Below, piece after piece: positions 1,913 through 44,609 of a stretch of 64,000 nucleotides of DNA; the first letter of the stretch is position 1, and every line of letters starts with the position of its first letter. Source of the stretch: Chelonoidis abingdonii (lineage: Eukaryota > Chordata > Testudines > Testudinidae); assembly GCF_003597395.2 (NCBI RefSeq), contig NC_133770.1, forward strand, positions 290,630,125 to 290,694,124. The letters are read 5' to 3'. The position numbers and the translations under genes are program-made. The notes below the pieces were generated by a model. That model saw only the letters and a list, made by a program, of their open reading frames with translations. It was not told where the DNA came from and ran no database searches.

Positions 1913-2812
1913 CTAGTTAAACTGTTCTAAGTAGCTGGTGTCTATTATTTAAGGCTTACTGGCTTCTCCTTTGCCTTTTCTGTTTCATTCTACCTTAGAC
2001 AGTGAGAATAAGTAATCTTACATTGATTTTTTTAAATTGAAGCAAGTTACCAGGTTTGATGAACCAATGGTGGCTAGATAGTATCTTGGAAAATCCAATG
2101 TTCTTTCAATACTATCGGTGCAACATCACTAATGAAACATCAACACATGCCTGCATAGTACCATTAGATCCTGCTCCTTTTGTAGCAAGACAAACACTAA
2201 GGTGATGAACGCTCTAAAAATACCATAGATCAGATTGTGTCATGAATTGCATGGTGACAGCCTATAGCTTTGGACCTCCTGACAAGCAGCAAGTTTCAAA
2301 ATGAAGTTCTGAGTTAGACTGTACATTTTAACAAAGGATCAGAAAAATACATACTACAAACAAACCGACTGTACACTAACACTGTAATTCAATCCAGAGT
2401 TTCCGTAGCTCTTTATACAATTGATGGAGCTGCCTGCAAACAACTCATGTCAGCAGAACCTTCTCAATTGAATTATTGTCTTGTGCTGAGCCAAGGCCAT
2501 GCATTATTCTATGAGAAAACAAAGCTTGAACTTGCAGGCAAAGGAAAGGCAGAAGAAATACTGCATGAAAAGAGCACTCAGAGGGGCTTCAAATGACTCC
2601 ATAGAACCCCATTCCCCCCTTGTGTGTCATCAGAAAGAAGAATCTTCAGGATCAAAGAACAGATTTCTATCACTTGAGTTAAAGGGCAAACTTCATCAGC
2701 TGGCAACAGATGTAAGCTATTATACGCCAGGTGGCCCAGCACCTAGAGGGGAATCATGACGCACACCACAAGTGTATGGCATTCAGATAGCCTCCAACAA
2801 CATTTTTCACAG
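1913..2812. other. unassigned non-coding sequence
   Basis: AT-rich sequence without a supported gene. The longest open frame (2499-2759, plus) is low complexity and matches nothing I know. Confidence 0.4.
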
Positions 2813-2960
2813 TGGTATACATACTTAAAGCCAGAAGGGACCCTTGTGATTAACTAGGCCGATCTCCTGCATAACACTGACCTTTGAATTTCACCCAGTA
2901 ATTTCTGCATCTAGCTCAACAATTTGTGGCTGAGCCACAGCATATCTTTTAGAAAGACAT
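2813..2960 (-). mobile_element. CR1 3' end, target of the LTR element
   Basis: Reads taaagccagaagggaccc...ctcctgcataacactgac...cagtaatttctgcatc...gcatatcttttagaaagacat, a CR1 3'-end type on the minus strand also seen at 10.19 kb. It is cut at GACAT by the LTR retrotransposon and seems to resume at 7629 as gacatccatttttgaatctttaaa. Confidence 0.65.
2956..2960. repeat. 5-bp target duplication, left copy
   Basis: GACAT immediately before the 5' LTR. The same five bases follow the 3' LTR at 7629-7633. Confidence 0.8.
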
Positions 2961-2992
2961 TGTCATAAGTAGATAGGTAAGGTAAGGGTTAA
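2961..2992 (+). repeat. 5' LTR, first 32 bp only
   Basis: tgtcataagtagatagg corresponds to tgtcatacgtagatagg at 6788, with a few differences. The rest of this LTR is hidden by the assembly gap; sequence after the gap (3093 on) does not match the LTR end. Confidence 0.75.
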
Positions 2993-3092
2993 NNNNNNNN
3001 NNNNNNNNNNNNNNNNNNNNNNNNNNNNNNNNNNNNNNNNNNNNNNNNNNNNNNNNNNNNNNNNNNNNNNNNNNNNNNNNNNNNNNNNNNNN
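2993..3092. other. assembly gap, 100 N
   Basis: Exactly 100 N, the usual placeholder for unknown size. The missing sequence must hold most of a roughly 840-bp LTR, the primer-binding site and possibly gag. Confidence 0.95.
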
Positions 3093-4008
3093 AACCTACA
3101 AACCGAGGGCACCCAAACCCACCTCAAACCAAGGAAGCCACAGACCCCTTTCTTCCACCTCACCGTATTCGTACTTACTTCACCCGTAACCGTTTCTGAA
3201 GATGCTATAGTGTATGAAACGGACAATCAAAGCAATGCCATAAGGCAACTCGCCCGAATAACCCCACCGGGTGCAAGTCATTGCACCCAGCAACCAAAGA
3301 TCCGTCCAGCTACTCTCCTCCCCGGAGCCGAGGGAATTGAGAGTGGGCGGAAGAGGTTACCGTGGAGAACGGAGCACGTGTCAGCTATCACCATCCTTCG
3401 TCGATCCCAAACTCCTCACCAAGGGGCCAAAGTGACCATTCCCTTACGTCCGCTGCTGACTTGCTACAGCTGAATGCCTGTCAGTAAAAGCTCGTCAGGA
3501 TTGCTGGACTTTTGCAGTTCTATTTGACATTATCCCCATCCCATGCTACTGGCGGGAAGACTTGGCCACCGTGAAGCAGTCCAGAAGAGAATGGTTACAC
3601 ACAGCAAACCGTGCAGCTTCAGACCCTTCACTATTCCTAGCGTCCACAGAGACTGTATGTGTTACCATGTACCAGATGAGGTAGTGGACCGGATCCCATG
3701 TACGCTGAAACGCCAAACTCGTCCCAGACCGGCTTGGACAGCAACCGCGCCAAGCAAGTGAACAACTTCACGAACGCCGAAGGGACCACGAGGCCTCAAC
3801 TGAGAAGTAACAGACACCTACGAGAGGCTCAGGCGAGCCTGATACCACCGGGTGCACCAGCGGGACAGCGCTACACAGCTACAGGAACACCCATCATCTA
3901 CATCACTTCAGAGAGACCAGCCAAGTCCCGTCTGAGTAGAACTGGTGTCCCCTGCGTCAAGGGAACGTTCAGACTTGAGCAGGAAGCAGTGAAGCTTCAG
4001 AAGCTTGG
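3093..4008 (+). other. 5' internal region of the LTR element, coding not recognised
   Basis: By position this should hold gag and protease. Open frames at 3210-3473 and 3698-4174 show no capsid, CCHC knuckle or DSG protease motif that I can identify. The stretch is visibly CpG-richer than its flanks. It may be badly eroded or mis-assembled. Confidence 0.4.
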
Positions 4009-4206
4009 GTGGCGGCCGGGAACACCCACGCTCTCAGCTCTTCTGACGATCCCGGTTTGTTTAGCCAAGGACTTTTTACAGGGAATTCTTTCTGGTGGAC
4101 CGCCAGGAAAGAAGGGCAGCCGCACAACGGGTTGGTGGTTCCAACTAAGTTACAGGGGAAGCTCTTTAGCTTAGCCCATGATCATCCCAGTGGCCTGCTG
4201 GGGTGA
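4009..4206 (+). pseudogene. pol relic: linker and start of integrase zinc-binding region
   Basis: One open frame ends in GLVVPTKLQGKLFSLAHDHP. This resembles the segment just before and into the HHCC zinc-binding domain of gypsy-type integrases, where a VVP...L...HDHP...GHLG pattern is usual. The two histidines are at 4177-4185; the expected GHLG reads GLLG. The frame stops at the homopolymer patch where the rest of the zinc finger should be. Confidence 0.6.
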
Positions 4207-4318
4207 CAAGAGGGGGGACCCCCAAAAGGGGGGGGAAAAAAAAACGGGGGTTTTTAGGGGGAAAAGGTTCCTTTTTTTTTTCCCCACTGGAAAGGGGGGG
4301 GGGGGGGATGGGGGGCAG
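4207..4318. other. homopolymer-rich patch, probable sequence error
   Basis: A chain of G, A, C and T runs, many 5-15 bases long, unlike anything else in the window. Its length is about what the missing part of the integrase zinc finger would need, and a cys-gln (TGCCAG, 4322) follows it. I read it as corrupted consensus or gap-fill over real coding sequence. Confidence 0.6.
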
Positions 4319-4454
4319 AGTTGCCAGTATGTCCAGGTCTTGTAGGTGTGGCAAAGGTGGGAAAGCTTCACATCTGGTCAAGGCCCTCTCCAGCACTCCC
4401 TCTTGAGGTCATTTCGCGGTACTTGGGCTATTTGGGTCTTTTCCGGAAGACACC

Positions 4455-5240
4455 CAGGGAAAGCGTTACGTATTGACTTTGTGGACTTGCTCCCGATGGC
4501 CAGAGCGTTGCTCTAGGCAACACCAGGGCTAAGCGTGTTGCCGCCCTAACAGATTCGCCAGGGTAGGTTGGCCCTCCGATATCCTTCGATTCAGGACTTT
4601 ATTTCCTGTCGGACATGAAGACCTGTGGGACATCATGGGTTTATCACTTGGTTGCCACCCGTACCCCATCAACCAATGGCTGGTGGAATGTTTAATGGAC
4701 TTTGGGGGCATGCATCCCGTAATTCGTTAACTGATACTCCATGACTGGGACCTAGTGTTGTGCAGTTGCTCTTTGCTTACAGAGGCTGCTACCACATCCA
4801 TTATAGGGTTTTCGCCATTTGAATTGTGTATGGCTTGAGTGTTTTAGGGGCCATTACAGCTGGTTGAAACACAATGGGAGGGGTTACACCTCTCCAGGCT
4901 AACATTCTGGATTTGTAGCACCTCACAAACACCCTCTGCCATTCTCTAGCCTTGTGAGGCAAACCTCAGGTACTCGAAGGCAAAGGCCTGGTACGTCTAC
5001 ATACCGCGACCGTTCCTTCAGAGAGGAGACCAGGTTATGGTCTTCGAAGGCGCAACAGGCCATAAGATGGACGCATCTGGGACGGGCCATTTCAGGTCCA
5101 AGAAGCGCTGGGAGCTGTTAACTTCTCTAAGCATTTCCCGATTCTCACTCAAACCCAAGTGGTACCATGTTAATTTCATCTCACGCCTTTTTTCCGAGAC
5201 TTACAGTTTGTCAGTTTACAGTCAGGGGCAGAGGCGCTGA
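4455..5240 (+). pseudogene. integrase relic of the LTR element
   Basis: A single reading frame, broken by several stops, carries integrase landmarks in order. GKRYVLT (about 4458) is followed by CSRWPER, where the first catalytic Asp is lost. VGWPSDIL lies near 4563 and DLWDIMG near 4620. HPYPINQWLVE (4656-4688) matches the HPY.PQTNG.VER box, with the final catalytic Glu at 4686. GFSPFEL is at 4806-4826. Further on, RGDQVMV (about 5022) and KWYHVN (5160-5174) match the post-integrase region of gypsy-type elements. In canonical Ty3/gypsy elements this domain follows RNase H; here it precedes RT. It cannot be functional. Confidence 0.75.
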
Positions 5241-5260
5241 GTGCTTGATGGCGATCTACT

Positions 5261-5866
5261 ATGACGGGAAAAAGGACGGCGGCGTGGAGAGGTGACCTCT
5301 CAACCCACCCTGGAAGTCTGCCGCGGCACAATCCGGAGCTGTGCACCAACTTGCACCATTGTTTCACACTCCAGGACGGACTGACGGGCATACCACTCAT
5401 TGACACAGGTATGCTCCCCATAGACCACCACCCTACCGGGTGTCCCCTTCCGCACAAGCCTGCTATAGAGCGGGGATCCAGGACATGCTCAGATGGGTAT
5501 AATCCCTATTTACCAGTGTGGCATCTCCGTGGTTCTGGTACCCAACCGATGGGGAAATACGCTTTGCCGTGGACTACCGTAGCTAACTGCGGTACTCGTC
5601 CAGACAACTATTCCATTTGCCACGCACGATGAGCTATTGGAAGTTGGGACGTGCCCAGTTCATCTCTACATGACTTAAACCAAAGGGGTACTGGCAGTAC
5701 TGCTAGATGAACTGCCACGGAAAGGTCAGCATTCGTCACCCATGGCGGGCGGTATATGAATTTAATGTATTCCTTTTCGGGCTGCGAAATGCACCCGCCA
5801 CCTTCCAGAGGCTGGTGATGGGTCTCTAGCAGGACTGGGGGAATATGCGTTGCTCTCGATGATGTT
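5261..5866 (+). pseudogene. reverse transcriptase relic of the LTR element
   Basis: Frames shift several times. IDTG (5399) with the following proline-rich stretch matches the N-terminal side of gypsy-type RT. RPDNYSICHA (about 5600) then DELLE (5628, other frame) match the PDxYP.P..DELL box. FGLRNAPATFQRLVMG (5776-5823) is the hallmark Ty3/gypsy RT motif. VALDDV (5849-5866) stands at the catalytic YxDD site, with Tyr replaced. Later WPEHLEHW (about 5888) fits the palm region. It starts soon after the post-integrase YHVN motif, as expected if the two domains were adjacent in the original element. Confidence 0.8.
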
Positions 5867-6305
5867 TGGCCATTTTTTCAGATCCTGGCCCGAACACCTA
5901 GAACACTGGAAAGGTCTGTTTGACCGTAATCAGACAGGGCAGACTAACTGTTAGGCAAAGTGTCAATTCGGCCAACCGAGTTACTTACCTGGGACACCGG
6001 TGGCTCCGGGACCTAAACCCCTATTCTTGTAATGGTCTCAGAGCCCGCTGGGATTGGTCTCTCACGGTCAGATATACGCTTCTGTTTTGGCTGTCCAGCC
6101 TCATTTGACATTTTCGGGTTTCAGATTTTTTTTAGGCTTTGCGTGTTGCAGGCTCTTGCCAGCAAAGTCTTAAAGCATTTGTCCACACTACAGCCAATCG
6201 CTGCACCACTGACCGAAACCTAACCAAGAAGCCCCGCCAACTACAGTTAATGGATGAGGAGTGTCAGGGAGGCCTTTACCCAACCTTAGGCGCGCTCAGT
6301 CTTAC

Positions 6306-6655
6306 CTGTGCTAAGGGCCCCAGACTTTGACAACCTTCCTAGTACACGATGCATCTGGCGTGGTTATTAGAGGCAGTTCTTATGCAGGGAAGGACGGATC
6401 GAACTTCCATCCTGTCGTGTTTCTCGCAAGAAACTATCTGGAGGAAGCCACTGGTCGTCGTGAAAGGAATGCTATGCCATTGTGTACGCCCTGGAAAGCT
6501 AGCCATAGTTTGGGACGCGGTTCCAGTCAACTGACCTGTTCGCTTTAAGTGGTTTCATACGCAACGGGAACACAGAAACTTCTTCGTTGGGTCTAGCTCT
6601 CAGTTTTATTGATTCACCATTCAGGACTTCTAAAAGTAGTGATGCACTCTCCCGC
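6306..6655 (+). pseudogene. RNase H relic of the LTR element
   Basis: TTFLVHDASGVV (from 6327) matches the first catalytic Asp box of gypsy RNase H (usually HTDASG). HPVVFLARNYLEEA follows in the same frame. A shifted frame then gives the YAIVYALE-type segment (about 6470), and DALSR at 6641-6655 is the usual end motif. Multiple frame breaks. The 3' LTR begins 132 bp later. Confidence 0.75.
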
Positions 6656-6787
6656 GGAGTTTCCGGCATACACTGCGTAAAACTTTTCCTTAATGTAAGG
6701 TTGATGTGTTGGTATTCTCTGTTTTAGTTTACGTTTCTAGGTAGAATCACTCCACGTGGATTTTTCCTGTCTGTGATTTGGGGGGCG

Positions 6788-7628
6788 TGTCATACGTAGA
6801 TAGGTCACGGTTAAGGGTTAAATTTCTTTTACTGTAAAGGCGTGACAAGGGAACAAAAACCAAAACCTGAAACAGAGACCAATCAGCGAGCTGGATTTTT
6901 TAAAGTCAGGGGCGGATTGTGTATTGGGTCTTTGTGTTTCTCCCGCTATGGGGAAAAGCTTTCCTGCTACTCCTATTTCTTTCTACATTTTCCTTACAAA
7001 GTGTGAGTACAAGGCACCAGGCAAATAGGCTGTTTATTGCTTTGTGTTTGTTTTACATGTGTGTTGTACTGTGCTGGACTTGGTTTCTTTTGGCTATCCT
7101 TTATCAGACTTTGTATTTCATATTTTCTTATAGCGAGCCTGCTTGATTCTTATGCATATATTGTTTTGTATTTTTCTTTCTTTTTTATGAAGTTTCTTTT
7201 TTAACCTGGCTGAGGTTTTGGGGTATTCTCCAGTGAGGTACAGGAAGGGAGGAGTGGACATTCTTCGTTTATATTCGCTTACTAGATTTGATGCATCGCC
7301 TCAGGGATGAGGGTGTTTCCTCTTTTGTTTTGCCTTTTCACGGAGTTAGTACTGCATCGCCCGGCTCACCCAGGGAAACTGGAGGGGAAGCGGGGGGCAG
7401 ATAACGAGGGACAATGGAGGGAGCTTGTTTTCCCGTTGAGATAGGGAGACCCATGGCTCGTGGGTCTGGGGGTCCCAGTATGTTGGGGTGACTCGGGGTA
7501 ATAGGAACCTAAATTGTCCTAGTGGTGGCAGCGAGATAATTCCAGCTGAGGTTTAAGCTGGGCGAGGTTCGTAACACTAGATGTTGTCTAGTACTCTAAG
7601 TCCAGATCTGAGACAGACGTTTATTACA
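6788..7628 (+). repeat. 3' LTR, complete
   Basis: 841 bp from tgtcatacg to gtttattaca, with TG...CA termini. Just before it is a short G-run (ggggggcg) that may be the remains of the polypurine tract. Inside, ccaatcagcg (about 6878) is CCAAT-like and ttttttaaag (about 6896) may be TATA-like. An open frame of 75 codons at 6919-7146 is hydrophobic, but nothing shows it is a gene. Confidence 0.75.
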
Positions 7629-7633
7629 GACAT
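7629..7633. repeat. 5-bp target duplication, right copy
   Basis: GACAT directly after the 3' LTR, pairing with 2956-2960. Confidence 0.8.
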
Positions 7634-7742
7634 CCATTTTTGAATCTTTAAAAACAAAACAATATAAAAAACCCTAACCACTTTAAATGCAAGCTAAACA
7701 AAATGAAAATCAAGAAAACACCACCATCAGTATTATTTAAAG

Positions 7743-8460
7743 CCATGGTTCTCAACTAGGGGTATGTGTATCCCTGGGGGCACATTGAGGTCTTCCAGGG
7801 GGTACATTGACTCATCTAGATACTTGCCTAGTTTTACAAAAGGCTACATAAAAAGCACTAGCGAAGTCAGTACAAACTAAAATTTCATACAATGAAATGT
7901 TTATTCTGCTCTGTATATTATACACCAGGGATAGACAACCTATGGCACGCATGCTGAAGGTGGCACGCAAGCTGATTTTCAGTGGCGCTCGCACTGCCTG
8001 GGGCCTGGCCACTGGTCTGGGGGGGCTCTGCATTTTAATTTTAAATGAAGTTTCTTAAACATTTTAAAAACCTTATTTACTTTACATACAATAGTTTAAT
8101 TATATATTATAGACTTATAGAAAGATCTTCTAAAAGCGTTAAAATGTATGACTGGCACGCAAAACCTTAAATTAGAGCAAATAAATGACGATTCGGCACA
8201 CCACTTCTGAAAGGTTGCTGACCCCTGTTATACACTGAAATGTAAGTACAAAATTTATATCCCAATGGATTTATTTTATAATTATATAGTAAAATTGAGA
8301 AAGTAAGCACTTTTTCAGTAATAGTGTGCTGTGACACTTTTGTATTTTTATGTCTGAATTTGTAAGCAAGTAGTTTTTAAGTGAGGTGAAACTTGGGGTG
8401 CACAAGCCGAATCAGACTCTTGAAAAGCGTACAGTAGTTTGGAAAGATTGAGAAGCACTG
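7743..8460. mobile_element. outer hAT-like element, interrupted
   Basis: Ends ccatggttctcaac and gattgagaagcactg are inverted repeats. Perfect 8-bp duplications ATTTAAAG lie at 7735-7742 and 8461-8468. Without the inner insertion it would be about 408 bp, AT-rich and without transposase. It was present before the inner element landed in it. Confidence 0.8.
7926..8227 (-). mobile_element. inner hAT MITE nested in the outer one
   Basis: 302 bp with ends cagggatagacaacct and aggttgctgacccctg. Perfect 8-bp duplications TTATACAC lie at 7918-7925 and 8228-8235. The sequence tggcacgcatgctgaaggtggcacgc and AT-rich centre lack any coding capacity. It would have been moved by a hAT transposase supplied in trans. 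Confidence 0.85.
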
Positions 8461-8764
8461 ATTTAAAGCATAGGAGGGAAGAATGGGTAAATTACCCTCC
8501 ATACTACAGATGCTCAAACTACTTTTCTGATCAACCATTCACATGCTTATAATTAATAGATCTTCACTAAATGAAGTTAGAAAACCATATTCCCTCTGGT
8601 TTTAAGGCTTGATATCTGAAGTAAAATCTGAAGTAAGCTGAGATATTCATAAGAACAGTGCCAAACAAACACATCCTAGTGACTGCATTGGGTGTAGAGA
8701 TGCTTCAGAGAACTACATTGTGCAAGTGTTTATTAATTTGTATTACAAAACTGTCTTGAGGCAA

Positions 8765-9005
8765 CAACCCAGATGGAGGCCCCATTGTGGAAGGTGCTGT
8801 AAAAACTCATAGCTATTCCCTGCCCCGGAGAGCCTGAAATCCAAGTATACAAGCCGGACAAAGGGTGGGGCAATGGATGACATATCCCTCATCTTACAGA
8901 TAAGGAACAGAGAGATTGGCAACTTGCCCAAGGTCACACAGGAAGTCTGTGGCAGACATTGAAACCAAATCTTCTGATTGCTATGACAGTGCCTTAGCCA
9001 TAAAA
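8765..9005 (-). repeat. MIR-like SINE, near full length
   Basis: ccccattgtggaaggtgctgtaaaaac (tail side) is followed by the core signature aacttgcccaaggtcacacaggaagtctgtggcag and the head side. The order is reversed relative to the plus-oriented copy at 14.85 kb, so it lies on the minus strand. The 88-codon frame across it is fortuitous. Confidence 0.65.
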
Positions 9006-10185
9006 TCAATCCAAAGCAATTAGCAAAGAGCCACCTGTGAATGAAATAGATTTGCGTTTGCCATTTATATCCATTTAAGAAACAAAAGAAAACATTTGAC
9101 AGGGTTTCATTTCAAATATTATTCTACCTATGGCTTTTCCCCTATATGACACAGCTGAAGTGCCAAATAACTACAGCAGATGAGCTAAGCACGACCACCT
9201 GGGCTTGAATCCATGCTCGCTATCATTAAACATTCTGTTTCCAAGACTTTCTTACCAGATTTTTCCTAGGGCTCTTGCATAATTCTTCGCAGCCCAGCTT
9301 CTATATTTTAATGCTGAGAAACCCTGTGAGGGCCCAATCCTTCAATCCCAAAGAAGTATTCAGCACCTTCTACTCCCAATGAAATCCACAGATTTCAAGG
9401 CTCGGATCAGTACCTTGCCAGAAGTGCTCAGCACCTCAGCAGTGCAGGCACTTAGAGATGTGCACTGGGCCCAGGATTTAGGGCTCAATCCCGTAAGGAG
9501 GTGAGCACTTTGGACCCGATGCAGCAAAACCTTAAATAATTTTAAACAAGTGAAAAGTCGTGTGCTTAAGTGCTTTTCTGGATCACAGCCAGTGCTTGCA
9601 ACTTCATAGGATTGAGCCTTTGGAGCACTGGAGGCCAGGCTTTTATTTAGATGTGAGTGAACCTCAGTCATGATCAGTTTAATTCCTCCACTTCCTTACA
9701 CCTTTTGATCAAATCATCTCTTCCCCACAGGAGCCTGCAATTCTAGATGCCGTAATCCCCCCAGCCCTTTAATCTCCTGCAGCTCTCTGACAATTACGCC
9801 AACGGGTTCTCTTTACATCTCCTTTTATGTTCACCTCAGGAGCCTTTACCCTTTTTCTGCCCACCAAGGTAGCACTGTCTGCATGACTACTTTTAAACCA
9901 ATTTGACCTTTTCTTCCCATTCATGCTACTTAACACAGCTGGAGGTGAAAGAGGCTGGGGAGAAGGCTGAACAGCAGAGTAAAGCTGGGAAAAGATATTT
10001 TACTATAGGCAAAGAGGCAGTGGGAAAGGAAAGGCCAAAAGCATTTAGGAACCCATTAAGAACTGGGCACAGATACTTAAGACTCAGGAGAAACGAGAAC
10101 CTTGGCAATATGGGCTAATTTTGTGTCACAGTCAAGGAGTAAGGTATAAGATCTAGTCTTACATTATACTGTACACCTGTACAGT
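9006..10185. other. unassigned non-coding sequence
   Basis: No supported gene. 9355-9660 has a patchy look, with repeated words such as gcactta and caatccc, that may be an old SINE-like repeat. The frame at 9360-9671 (minus, 103 codons) has no recognisable domain. Confidence 0.35.
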
Positions 10186-23409: not shown

Positions 23410-24715
23410 TTGAGAACATAAGAACGGCCGTACTGGGTCAGATCAAAGGTCCATCTAGCCCAGTATCCTGTCTACCGACAGTGGCCAATGCCAGGTGCCC
23501 CAAAGGGAATGAATCTAACAGGTAATGATCAAGTGATCTCTCTCCTGCCATCCATCTCCACCCTCTGACAAACAGAGGCTAGGGACACCATTCCTTACCC
23601 ATCCCGGCTAACAGCCATTAATGGANNNNNNNNNNNNNNNNNNNNNNNNNNNNNNNNNNNNNNNNNNNNNNNNNNNNNNNNNNNNNNNNNNNNNNNNNNN
23701 NNNNNNNNNNNNNNNNNNNNNNNNNNNNNNNNNNNNNNNNNNNNNNNNNNNNNNNNNNNNNNNNNNNNNNNNNNNNNNNNNNNNNNNNNNNNNNNNNNNN
23801 NNNNNNNNNNNNNNNNNNNNNNNNNNNNNNNNNNNNNNNNNNNNNNNNNNNNNNNNNNNNNNNNNNNNNNNNNNNNNNNNNNNNNNNNNNNNNNNNNNNN
23901 NNNNNNNNNNNNNNNNNNNNNNNNNNNNNNNNNNNNNNNNNNNNNNNNNNNNNNNNNNNNNNNNNNNNNNNNNNNNNNNNNNNNNNNNNNNNNNNNNNNN
24001 NNNNNNNNNNNNNNNNNNNNNNNNNNNNNNNNNNNNNNNNNNNNNNNNNNNNNNNNNNNNNNNNNNNNNNNNNNNNNNNNNNNNNNNNNNNNNNNNNNNN
24101 NNNNNNNNNNNNNNNNNNNNNNNNNNNNNNNNNNNNNNNNNNNNNNNNNNNNNNNNNNNNNNNNNNNNNNNNNNNNNNNNNNNNNNNNNNNNNNNNNNNN
24201 NNNNNNNNNNNNNNNNNNNNNNNNNNNNNNNNNNNNNNNNNNNNNNNNNNNNNNNNNNNNNNNNNNNNNNNNNNNNNNNNNNNNNNNNNNNNNNNNNNNN
24301 NNNNNNNNNNNNNNNNNNNNNNNNNNNNNNNNNNNNNNNNNNNNNNNNNNNNNNNNNNNNNNNNNNNNNNNNNNNNNNNNNNNNNNNNNNNNNNNNNGCT
24401 CTCAGTCCCTGAAAGGATCTTCCCTCTTATCCCATTATACCTTTATTTACATAAGAGCCTTTGGTGAGAGACCTTGTCAAAGGCTTTCTGGAAATCTAAG
24501 TACACTCTCTCCACTGGATCCCTCTTGTCCACATGTTTGTTGACCCCTTCAAAGAACTCTAATAGATTAGTAAGACACGATTTCCCTTTACAGAAACCAT
24601 GTTGACTTCTGCCCAACAATTTATGTTCTTCTATGTGTCCGACAATTTTATTCTTTACTATTGTTTCAACTAATTTGCCCAGTATGGACATTAGACCTTG
24701 AACTTGTAGGAAGCT
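23410..24715 (-). mobile_element. CR1 LINE, split by an assembly gap
   Basis: The 3' end (taagaacggccgtactgggtcag...) lies at 23415-23625, and coding sequence resumes at 24398. Order and strand agree with one element whose middle is in the gap. The 772-N size plausibly fits the missing RT C-terminal part. Confidence 0.75.
23626..24397. other. assembly gap, 772 N
   Basis: Non-round length suggests an estimated size. It lies wholly inside the CR1 copy. Confidence 0.95.
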
Positions 24716-37864: not shown

Positions 37865-38530
37865 TGTGACAGGGTCCAGCCAGATGGATACAGGAAAGTG
37901 TTAGAAGGCAGATATATTAGTCCCAGATTAAATAGATCTCTCTTCCCTGGGTAAGGTAACAGGGACAGTTCCAGAACAAGCAGGAACTTGCTGGAACCAG
38001 TTAAGGCAGGCAGGCTTATTAAGACATCTGGAGCCAGTTGGGAAGAAACTGCTAGAAACAATTAGGACAGGCTGGCTAATCAGGGCACCTGAGTTTAAAA
38101 AGGACCTCACTTCAGGAGCTGGGAGCAAGAGGCATTAGGAGCTGAGAGTGGAAAGGCTGGACAATTGATGAGTACAAGCATTATCAGACACCAGGAGAAA
38201 GGTCCTGTGGTGAGGATAAAGAAGTTGTTGTGAGGAGGCTATGGCGAAGTAGCCCAGGGACTTGTAGCTGTCACGCAACTATACCAGGAGGCACTCTAGA
38301 CAGCTGCGATCCACAGGGCCCTGGGCTGGAACCTGGAATAGAGGGCGGGCCCGGGTTCCCCCCAAACCTCCCAACTCCTGATCAGACACAGGAGGAGCTG
38401 ACCAGACTGTGGGTTCTACCAGAGGGGAAGGTCTCTGGGCTGTTCCCTGACCCACATGGTGAATCTCTGAGGCGAAGAAATCTGCCAATAAGTGAAGGAG
38501 CCACCAAGATAGAGGAGGAACTTTGTCACA
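37865..38530 (+). mobile_element. solo LTR (666 bp) with CAGT target duplication
   Basis: tgtgacaggg...aactttgtcaca gives matched TGTGAC/GTCACA ends. The 4-bp word CAGT flanks it at 37861-37864 and 38531-38534. gtttaaaaagg (about 38092) may be its TATA box. A diverged relative lies at 43170. No internal retroviral sequence adjoins either side. Confidence 0.75.
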
Positions 38531-44252: not shown

Positions 44253-44609
44253 GCAGGGGAGGACTTTAGGGAATGGACTATACCTGAGCCTGTAACCTGA
44301 GCTAGGTAAGGGGGGTGGGAGGTCAACACCTTTGCCTGGGAAGGAAGACAAAAGAGGCTGGCAGGAGGGACTTTAGTTTCAGTTTGGGTTTGGGGCTGTG
44401 TGGGCGGAATTCAGGGTATCCTAAGCTGGGATTCAAGCATCCTGAAAGCCCAGAAGGACTCGATTGAGGGGTCCTGACTGTGCCTGCAAGCTCTGCTGTA
44501 ACCTGCGTTCCTGTTGTCCAATAAACCTTCTGTTTTACTGACTGGCTAAGAGTCACTGAGAGTCCCAGGAAGAGGGGTGCAGGGCCAGACTCCCCCACAC
44601 TCCGTGACA
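44253..44609 (+). mobile_element. retroviral-type LTR, R-U5 part
   Basis: gttgtccaataaaccttctgttttactgactggc carries an aataaa signal (44520) about 90 bp before the end cacactccgtgaca. Upstream gtttgggtttggggctgtg looks like U3. The start is not resolved and there is no adjoining internal region. Old endogenous copy, non-coding. Confidence 0.5.

Follow-up and report, generated by a model that had tools for sequence, protein, structure and literature searches.

Positions 2961-7628 of the window (the whole 64,000-nucleotide stretch of Chelonoidis abingdonii DNA analysed here, assembly CheloAbing_2.0) hold one LTR-retrotransposon insertion on the + strand in which integrase precedes reverse transcriptase (RT). 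We assign it, with a probability of about 0.95, to a single Gmr1-like Ty3/gypsy (Metaviridae) insertion with the order LTR, gag (SCAN-type capsid C-terminal domain and zinc knuckle), protease, integrase, RT, RNase H, LTR. Both the integrase-first arrangement and its link to the SCAN domain are already published; what is added here is a branch, from turtles, of gypsy elements with integrase first, and no paper on such elements in turtles was found among the literature matches listed. The parts of the insertion are as follows.

2956..2960, no strand: 5' copy of the target-site duplication, GACAT; same letters at 7629-7633
2961..2992, + strand: start of the 5' LTR, first 32 bp, beginning TG; direct repeat of 6788 onward
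2993..3092, no strand: assembly gap of 100 N (N run), covering the remaining 5' LTR and the greater part of gag
3093..3999, + strand: gag end, protease and pre-integrase stretch, badly degraded; collinear DNA match to sister copies
4000..4386, + strand: N-terminal zinc-binding part of integrase; tblastn with an L009 piece carrying Integrase_H2C2
4317..4688, + strand: integrase core, with HPY...LVE at 4656-4688; tblastn (4317-4664) with an L015 piece carrying rve, and translated motif
4745..5233, + strand: integrase post-core with the C-terminal SH3-like domain, GFSPFEL at 4806 and YHVN at 5163; tblastn with an L014 piece
5188..6000, + strand: reverse transcriptase, with FGLRNAPATFQRL at 5776 and LDD at 5855; tblastn with an L022 piece (5188-5898) and the L029 RT (5548-6000)
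6197..6655, + strand: RNase H; tblastn with an L012 piece carrying RT_RNaseH at E 1.1e-38
6777..6787, + strand: polypurine tract TTTGGGGGGCG, directly before the 3' LTR; identical string before the 3' LTR of L009, L017 and L018
6788..7628, + strand: 3' LTR, 841 bp, TG...CA; 78% match to the L019 LTR over 872 positions
7629..7633, no strand: 3' copy of the target-site duplication, GACAT; same letters at 2956-2960

The hallmarks of an LTR retrotransposon are present, namely TG...CA ends, an exact 5-bp duplication and a polypurine tract. The 841-bp LTR of the original prediction was recovered at the 3' end, while at the 5' end just 32 bp are visible before the gap, all of them (32/32) the same as at the beginning of the LTR in several sister copies (L014 and L015 among them). 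Because the rest of the 5' LTR falls in the gap, a repeat search found no long repeat pair within the window; paired LTRs were observed in sister copies (e.g. L017, L018 and L019). Gag is likewise out of view because it lies in the gap, and in L019 the distance from the end of the 5' LTR to the point matching window position 3095 is about 1.3 kb. The protease region of the window, judged by eye, lies near 3315-3470. Neither a tRNA gene nor a further copy of the same family was found in the window.

All five motifs named beforehand translate at their expected places (HPYPINQWLVE at 4656-4688, GFSPFEL at 4806-4826, YHVN at 5163-5174, FGLRNAPATFQRL at 5776-5814 and LDD at 5855-5863), and 132 bp do separate the end of RNase H (6655) from the 3' LTR (6788). 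The reading frame shifts from piece to piece, and the window copy therefore has no continuous frame; its assignment to Ty3/gypsy goes via DNA and tblastn collinearity with sister copies, whose protein pieces match the + strand of the window in the order integrase, RT, RNase H, as had been predicted. The L014 piece matching 4745..5233 carries SH3_Tf2-1 and Integrase_p58_C, and the L022 piece is RVT_1 (Pfam, E 8e-24).

The prediction further held that other copies should keep this order. Twenty copies from the same genome, half of the 40 places scored and chosen by similarity or open-frame length rather than at random, were fetched, and in 20/20 a single collinear DNA match covers integrase together with the front of RT or more of it; in 18 of them (all but L025 and L026) it extends past LDD with the RNase H part downstream. 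Pfam models, run on the unmended open pieces of sister copies, fall in the order Integrase_H2C2 and rve, then SH3_Tf2-1 and Integrase_p58_C, then RVT_1, then RT_RNaseH. Integrase after RNase H was seen in none of the 20 copies, nor in 12 loci of other families, within the stretches fetched. The order of integrase before RT is not due to chance.

The window copy itself is an outlier, sharing 79-86% identity with copies that reach about 93-98% among themselves. Much of its apparent decay is probably assembly noise added to real differences. Its differences contain more transversions than transitions (80 transitions and 94 transversions in integrase, 42 and 54 in RT), CpG sites have no excess of TG/CA (2/20 and 2/30) though the rates of difference elsewhere are 20% and 14%, and 167 and 95 letters are shared with no other copy. 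According to PMC12032190, contigs of this assembly were joined with 100 N and gaps were filled by PacBio reads of about 0.5x, and noisy gap-filling of this kind fits the divergence just described. That the divergence instead reflects true age, the natural decay of an old insertion, would concern the copy and not the family; it runs along the whole element, and divergent stretches occur in L011, L013, L023 and L027 too, but the transversion excess, the CpG sites, the private letters and the manner of assembly all speak against this reading, which we consider unlikely. A mosaic or subfamily origin was also considered for the divergent 5' parts of copies, where the star-like and transversion-rich pairwise identities point to noise as at least part of the divergence. 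LTR pairs were rejected as a clock. A long pair is present in 7 of the 20 copies (L009, L010, L017, L018, L019, L027 and L028), and the two LTRs of one copy are 76.5% to 94.4% identical, yet most copies share 95-100% identity with each other in pol, so that LTR divergence is no gauge of age here. Copy integrity and LTR age should not be inferred from this assembly, and repeat copies in such a gap-filled assembly can appear ancient and broken through assembly noise.

The gag of the family was seen in sister copies. SCAN was detected in two of the six gag-region pieces scanned, those of L021 (32.9 bits) and L019 (32.3 bits), above the Pfam cut-off of 27. For L015 and L022 the gag pieces gave no Pfam hit and resemble P0121, a protein that bears SCAN, at only 49-52%; the L014 piece begins inside the SCAN domain, and the L012 piece has no match. 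The four best-scoring non-spurious PDB matches of the L021 gag are all SCAN-type chains (ZNF42, ZNF24, ZNF174 and PEG3), although weak at E 0.0057 to 0.48. P0121, a host protein, combines SCAN with a zinc knuckle and a weak protease match. Protease matches in sister copies lie below the Pfam cut-off, as in the weak one of the L014 piece matching window 3093..3999, and the position of protease ahead of integrase is suggested by these sub-cut-off matches together with BLASTP to P0121. Among relatives, PF02023 is present in 12 of 48.

The same order is found outside the family. In other families of the genome the integrase core lies ahead of RT in 11 of 12 loci, which were chosen by similarity or open-frame length and not at random; at L029, integrase, RT and RNase H share one open frame with a stop after RNase H. 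The L022 RT has 44-51% identity to other integrase-first families of the same genome. Integrase also comes first in 91 of the 93 scorable database proteins, one of them from Atlantic cod (Gadus morhua P0204: integrase core 65-165, RT 459-618, RNase H 708-811), and the two with an integrase match after RT are P0186 (Emys, annotated partial) and P0093 (a weak 31-36% match). Of ten turtle proteins scanned, six carry both domains in a single natural frame, with the C-terminal part of integrase ahead of RT, and the other four lack one of the two.

In an RT tree of 26 rows, which includes an integrase-first Gadus morhua protein not named Gmr1, holds no named Gmr1 and leaves canonical vertebrate gypsies out, 9 of 23 inner branches are open. 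In it the window family stands as a separate turtle branch (99/94), which groups with L029 and one row from a sea turtle (88/81); how it joins the fish and amphibian rows is not strongly resolved. This topology could arise if a Ty3/gypsy lineage separate from Gmr1 had acquired the integrase-first order on its own, but integrase also comes first in the rows from cod, Xenopus, carp, salmon, sturgeon and lizard, the integrase-first Fundulus protein P0257 bears a SCAN gag domain, and SCAN is found in the gag of the window family itself, which leaves an independent gain very improbable. The Gmr1-like reading of the original prediction is well supported by gypsy-type enzymes, by integrase before RT family-wide and by SCAN in the gag of two sister copies. 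The chance that the order is an artefact, with two elements or two parts of one joined at the locus, is negligible: the window copy is noisy and adjoins an assembly gap, but all 20 fetched copies keep the order, the 5-bp duplication is exact with matching LTR ends, and single open frames of other families hold the same order. Ty1/copia identity, where integrase before RT is normal, has the domain order alone in its favour and can be set aside, as RT pieces fit RVT_1 and gypsy-type RT_RNaseH with no copia-type RT model among the Pfam matches, integrase fits SH3_Tf2-1 and Integrase_p58_C, and Ty3 chains are the best PDB matches.

By general LTR retrotransposon biology, RNA derived from the LTR would be translated into a Gag-Pol product that would be packed into particles, where RT and RNase H would copy the RNA from a tRNA primer before integrase inserts the copy and creates the 5-bp duplication. 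A putative primer site follows the 5' LTR in L009 and L027 (TGGTGGCAGCGG) and presumably fits tRNA-Leu.

The SCAN domain has been proposed to derive from a Gmr1-like gag, and a SCAN-type gag together with a permuted pol in one family bears on this origin. Copies sitting on different chromosomes of the Pinta tortoise share 98-100% identity in their pol pieces, and long open frames survive in some families. It is conceivable, at somewhat less than even odds, that several Gmr1-like families with a SCAN-type gag live side by side in tortoises and other turtles and have multiplied there recently. Turtles would then offer some of the best opportunities for studying living elements closely related to the one from which vertebrates obtained SCAN.

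Compared with known systems, the family is like yeast Ty3 and canonical Ty3/gypsy elements in its enzymes, Ty3 being the best PDB match of both RT (4ol8, 4.9e-40) and integrase (7q5b, 1.9e-9), but the order is reversed: in one alignment the C-terminal part of integrase follows RT in Ty3 (1402-1447 after 590-819) but lies ahead of it in L029 (16-61 before 135-366). With Ty1/copia it shares integrase before RT, yet its RT, RNase H and integrase fit gypsy-type models. In zinc-finger proteins SCAN sits beside C2H2 zinc fingers, whereas here it lies in gag, between 5' LTR and protease; the L021 gag piece resembles these proteins by its Pfam SCAN and its weak matches to ZNF42, ZNF24 and ZNF174 chains. 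A SCAN-type gag domain is found in many, not all, Gmr elements. The closest counterpart is the Gmr1/Gmr1-like clade (Gadus morhua, frogs, pufferfishes, Ciona and an annelid), which has the same PR-IN-RT-RH order with gypsy-type enzymes. The predicted Gmr1-like order stands, but the group is no longer limited to deuterostomes, since an annelid family falls in the Gmr1 clade (PMC8220671). Over 50% of frog Gmr elements have SCAN in gag (PMC4131045). The turtle element, near 7 kb, is similar in size to the pufferfish consensus sequences of PMC11117352 (6.1-6.5 kb), but the 841-bp LTR of its branch is longer than the 337-518 bp in the pufferfish table.

The order of integrase before reverse transcriptase (RT) is a property of the whole family to which the window element belongs, and not of the window copy alone. 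In a whole-genome search with the window integrase DNA, 40 places among 934 first-look candidates were scored, and 20 of these were retrieved with flanks. All 20 sister copies (L009-L028) gave one collinear match spanning integrase and either the front of RT or more of it; in 18 of them, all but L025 and L026, the match extends beyond the LDD motif and RNase H follows. Seven places, counted by eye, are common to this search and the RNase H listing, and in each of them integrase is followed by RNase H at a distance of about 1.5-1.7 kb. A Pfam scan of open, unmended pieces of the sister copies gave Integrase_H2C2 and rve, then SH3_Tf2-1 and Integrase_p58_C, then RVT_1 and finally RT_RNaseH, while protease matches were weak and under the cut-off.

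In the window itself, a single LTR-retrotransposon insertion occupies 2961-7628, starting with TG and finishing with CA, with the following features:

2956-2960 and 7629-7633: target-site duplication GACAT, exact over 5 bp, flanking the element
first 32 bp of the element: visible part of the 5' LTR, the remainder lying behind an N run
6788-7628: 3' LTR

The 5' LTR is seen for 32 bp only because 100 N occupy 2993-3092. The integrase and RT motifs named in the original prediction all translate where it had placed them, and matches of sister-copy protein pieces order the domains as integrase zinc-binding part, integrase core, integrase C-terminal part, RT and RNase H. In L019, a full element (about 2224 to 9136), ~1.3 kb separates the 5' LTR from the point matching window 3095; the equivalent part, most of gag, falls inside the window gap. 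The 3' flank at 7735-8465 consists of a dispersed repeat present in many copies, for which a search gave 11874 first-look candidates. Short matches at 44380-44593 (90% over 214 bp, to sequence adjoining RNase H of L029, a locus of another family) and at 38311-38359 (86% over 50 bp, likewise for L031) are dispersed repeats or fragments of LTRs.

The window copy is only 79% identical to the other copies in the aligned integrase block (19 copies, L016 left out) and 86% in the RT block (17 copies, L025-L027 left out); mean identities of the other copies are 93-97% and 95-98%, respectively. Its differences are rich in transversions and include many small deletions, a search for CpG excess among them found none, and 167 (integrase block) and 95 (RT block) of its letters match no other copy. 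We infer from these features that poorly corrected reads make up much of the sequence here. In CheloAbing_2.0, contigs are reported to be joined by 100 N and gaps to be filled from PacBio data of about 0.5x coverage (PMC12032190). The window holds N runs at 2993-3092, exactly 100 N, the size this assembly uses for joins of undetermined length (PMC12032190), and at 23626-24397. Within the element, a patch at about 4215-4315 with long runs of G, A and T resembles a base-calling fault more than a biological feature. Other copies, too, are noisy in their 5' parts and LTRs, and reading frames and LTR ages are therefore unreliable in this assembly. The LTRs of L009, L010 and L018 and the 5' parts of L011, L013, L023 and L027 vary far more than pol, both between and within copies, and abrupt switches along some of these copies could reflect noise, recombination or both.

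Six gag-region pieces were scanned for SCAN at the Pfam cut-off of 27 bits. Two exceeded it (L021, 32.9 bits; L019, 32.3 bits) and four did not (L012, L014, L015 and L022). The L014 piece starts within the SCAN domain and is 71% identical to P0121, a Chelonoidis abingdonii protein with SCAN at 200-278, a zinc knuckle at 357-373 and a weak protease match at 410-443. The L015 and L022 pieces align to P0121 at 49% and 52%, and the L012 piece shows no meaningful alignment to it. A precomputed list assigns SCAN to 12 of the 48 relatives found for the L014 piece. PDB matches of the L021 piece are weak; human zinc-finger proteins supply the top three, all of them SCAN domains (E 0.0057, 0.018 and 0.046). 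A Caretta protein, P0133, joins in one frame, and in this order, a SCAN match (22.3 bits, below the cut-off), a weak protease match and Integrase_H2C2.

The same order recurs outside the family. Among 150 listed RNase H loci, 12 further ones were chosen by eye, mainly for long open frames, and represent several families by RT identity. Integrase core precedes RT in 11 of them, an integrase match is absent from the fetched stretch of L037, and downstream integrase was not found in any of the 12 within the fetched stretches. These loci (L029-L040) represent several other integrase-first gypsy families of the tortoise genome, and some have long open frames; the selected sample contained no gypsy element with integrase last. 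Matches to an integrase core and to RT occurred together in 93 of 288 database proteins found, of which 91 have integrase first, among them P0204 of Gadus morhua (possibly not Gmr1 itself); the two others are Emys P0186, a partial protein, and P0093, whose integrase match is weak. A predicted Malaclemys terrapin protein, P0088, matches 63% of the RT query yet scans as GDSL lipase-like, and is probably a gene model spanning a repeat junction. The RT tree comprises 26 rows, with Ty3 as a very long row and no canonical vertebrate gypsy among them, and in it the window family (5 rows) forms a single branch (99/94). This branch shares a group with L029 and one Eretmochelys row (88/81); of the 23 inner branches of the tree, 9 lack resolution.

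Having integrase first is described as the feature that marks out the Gmr1 clade, an unusual group of gypsy elements (PMC2582038, PMC2774666, PMC6238403, PMC8220671), over half of frog Gmr elements are reported to carry SCAN (PMC4131045), and the SCAN domain is reported to derive from a Gmr1-like gag (PMC4592553, PMC3424704, both citing Emerson and Thomas 2011). The tortoise element therefore belongs to a kind already known, to which it adds a member. The top solved-structure match was Ty3 both for RT (4ol8, 4.9e-40, among the best 60 of 203 matched sequences) and for integrase (7q5b, 1.9e-9). In the Ty3 chain, RT (590-819) lies ahead of the integrase C-terminal part (1402-1447), whereas the tortoise L029 piece shows the reverse, with the integrase C-terminal part (16-61) ahead of RT (135-366). 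This comparison is a direct control for the domain swap.
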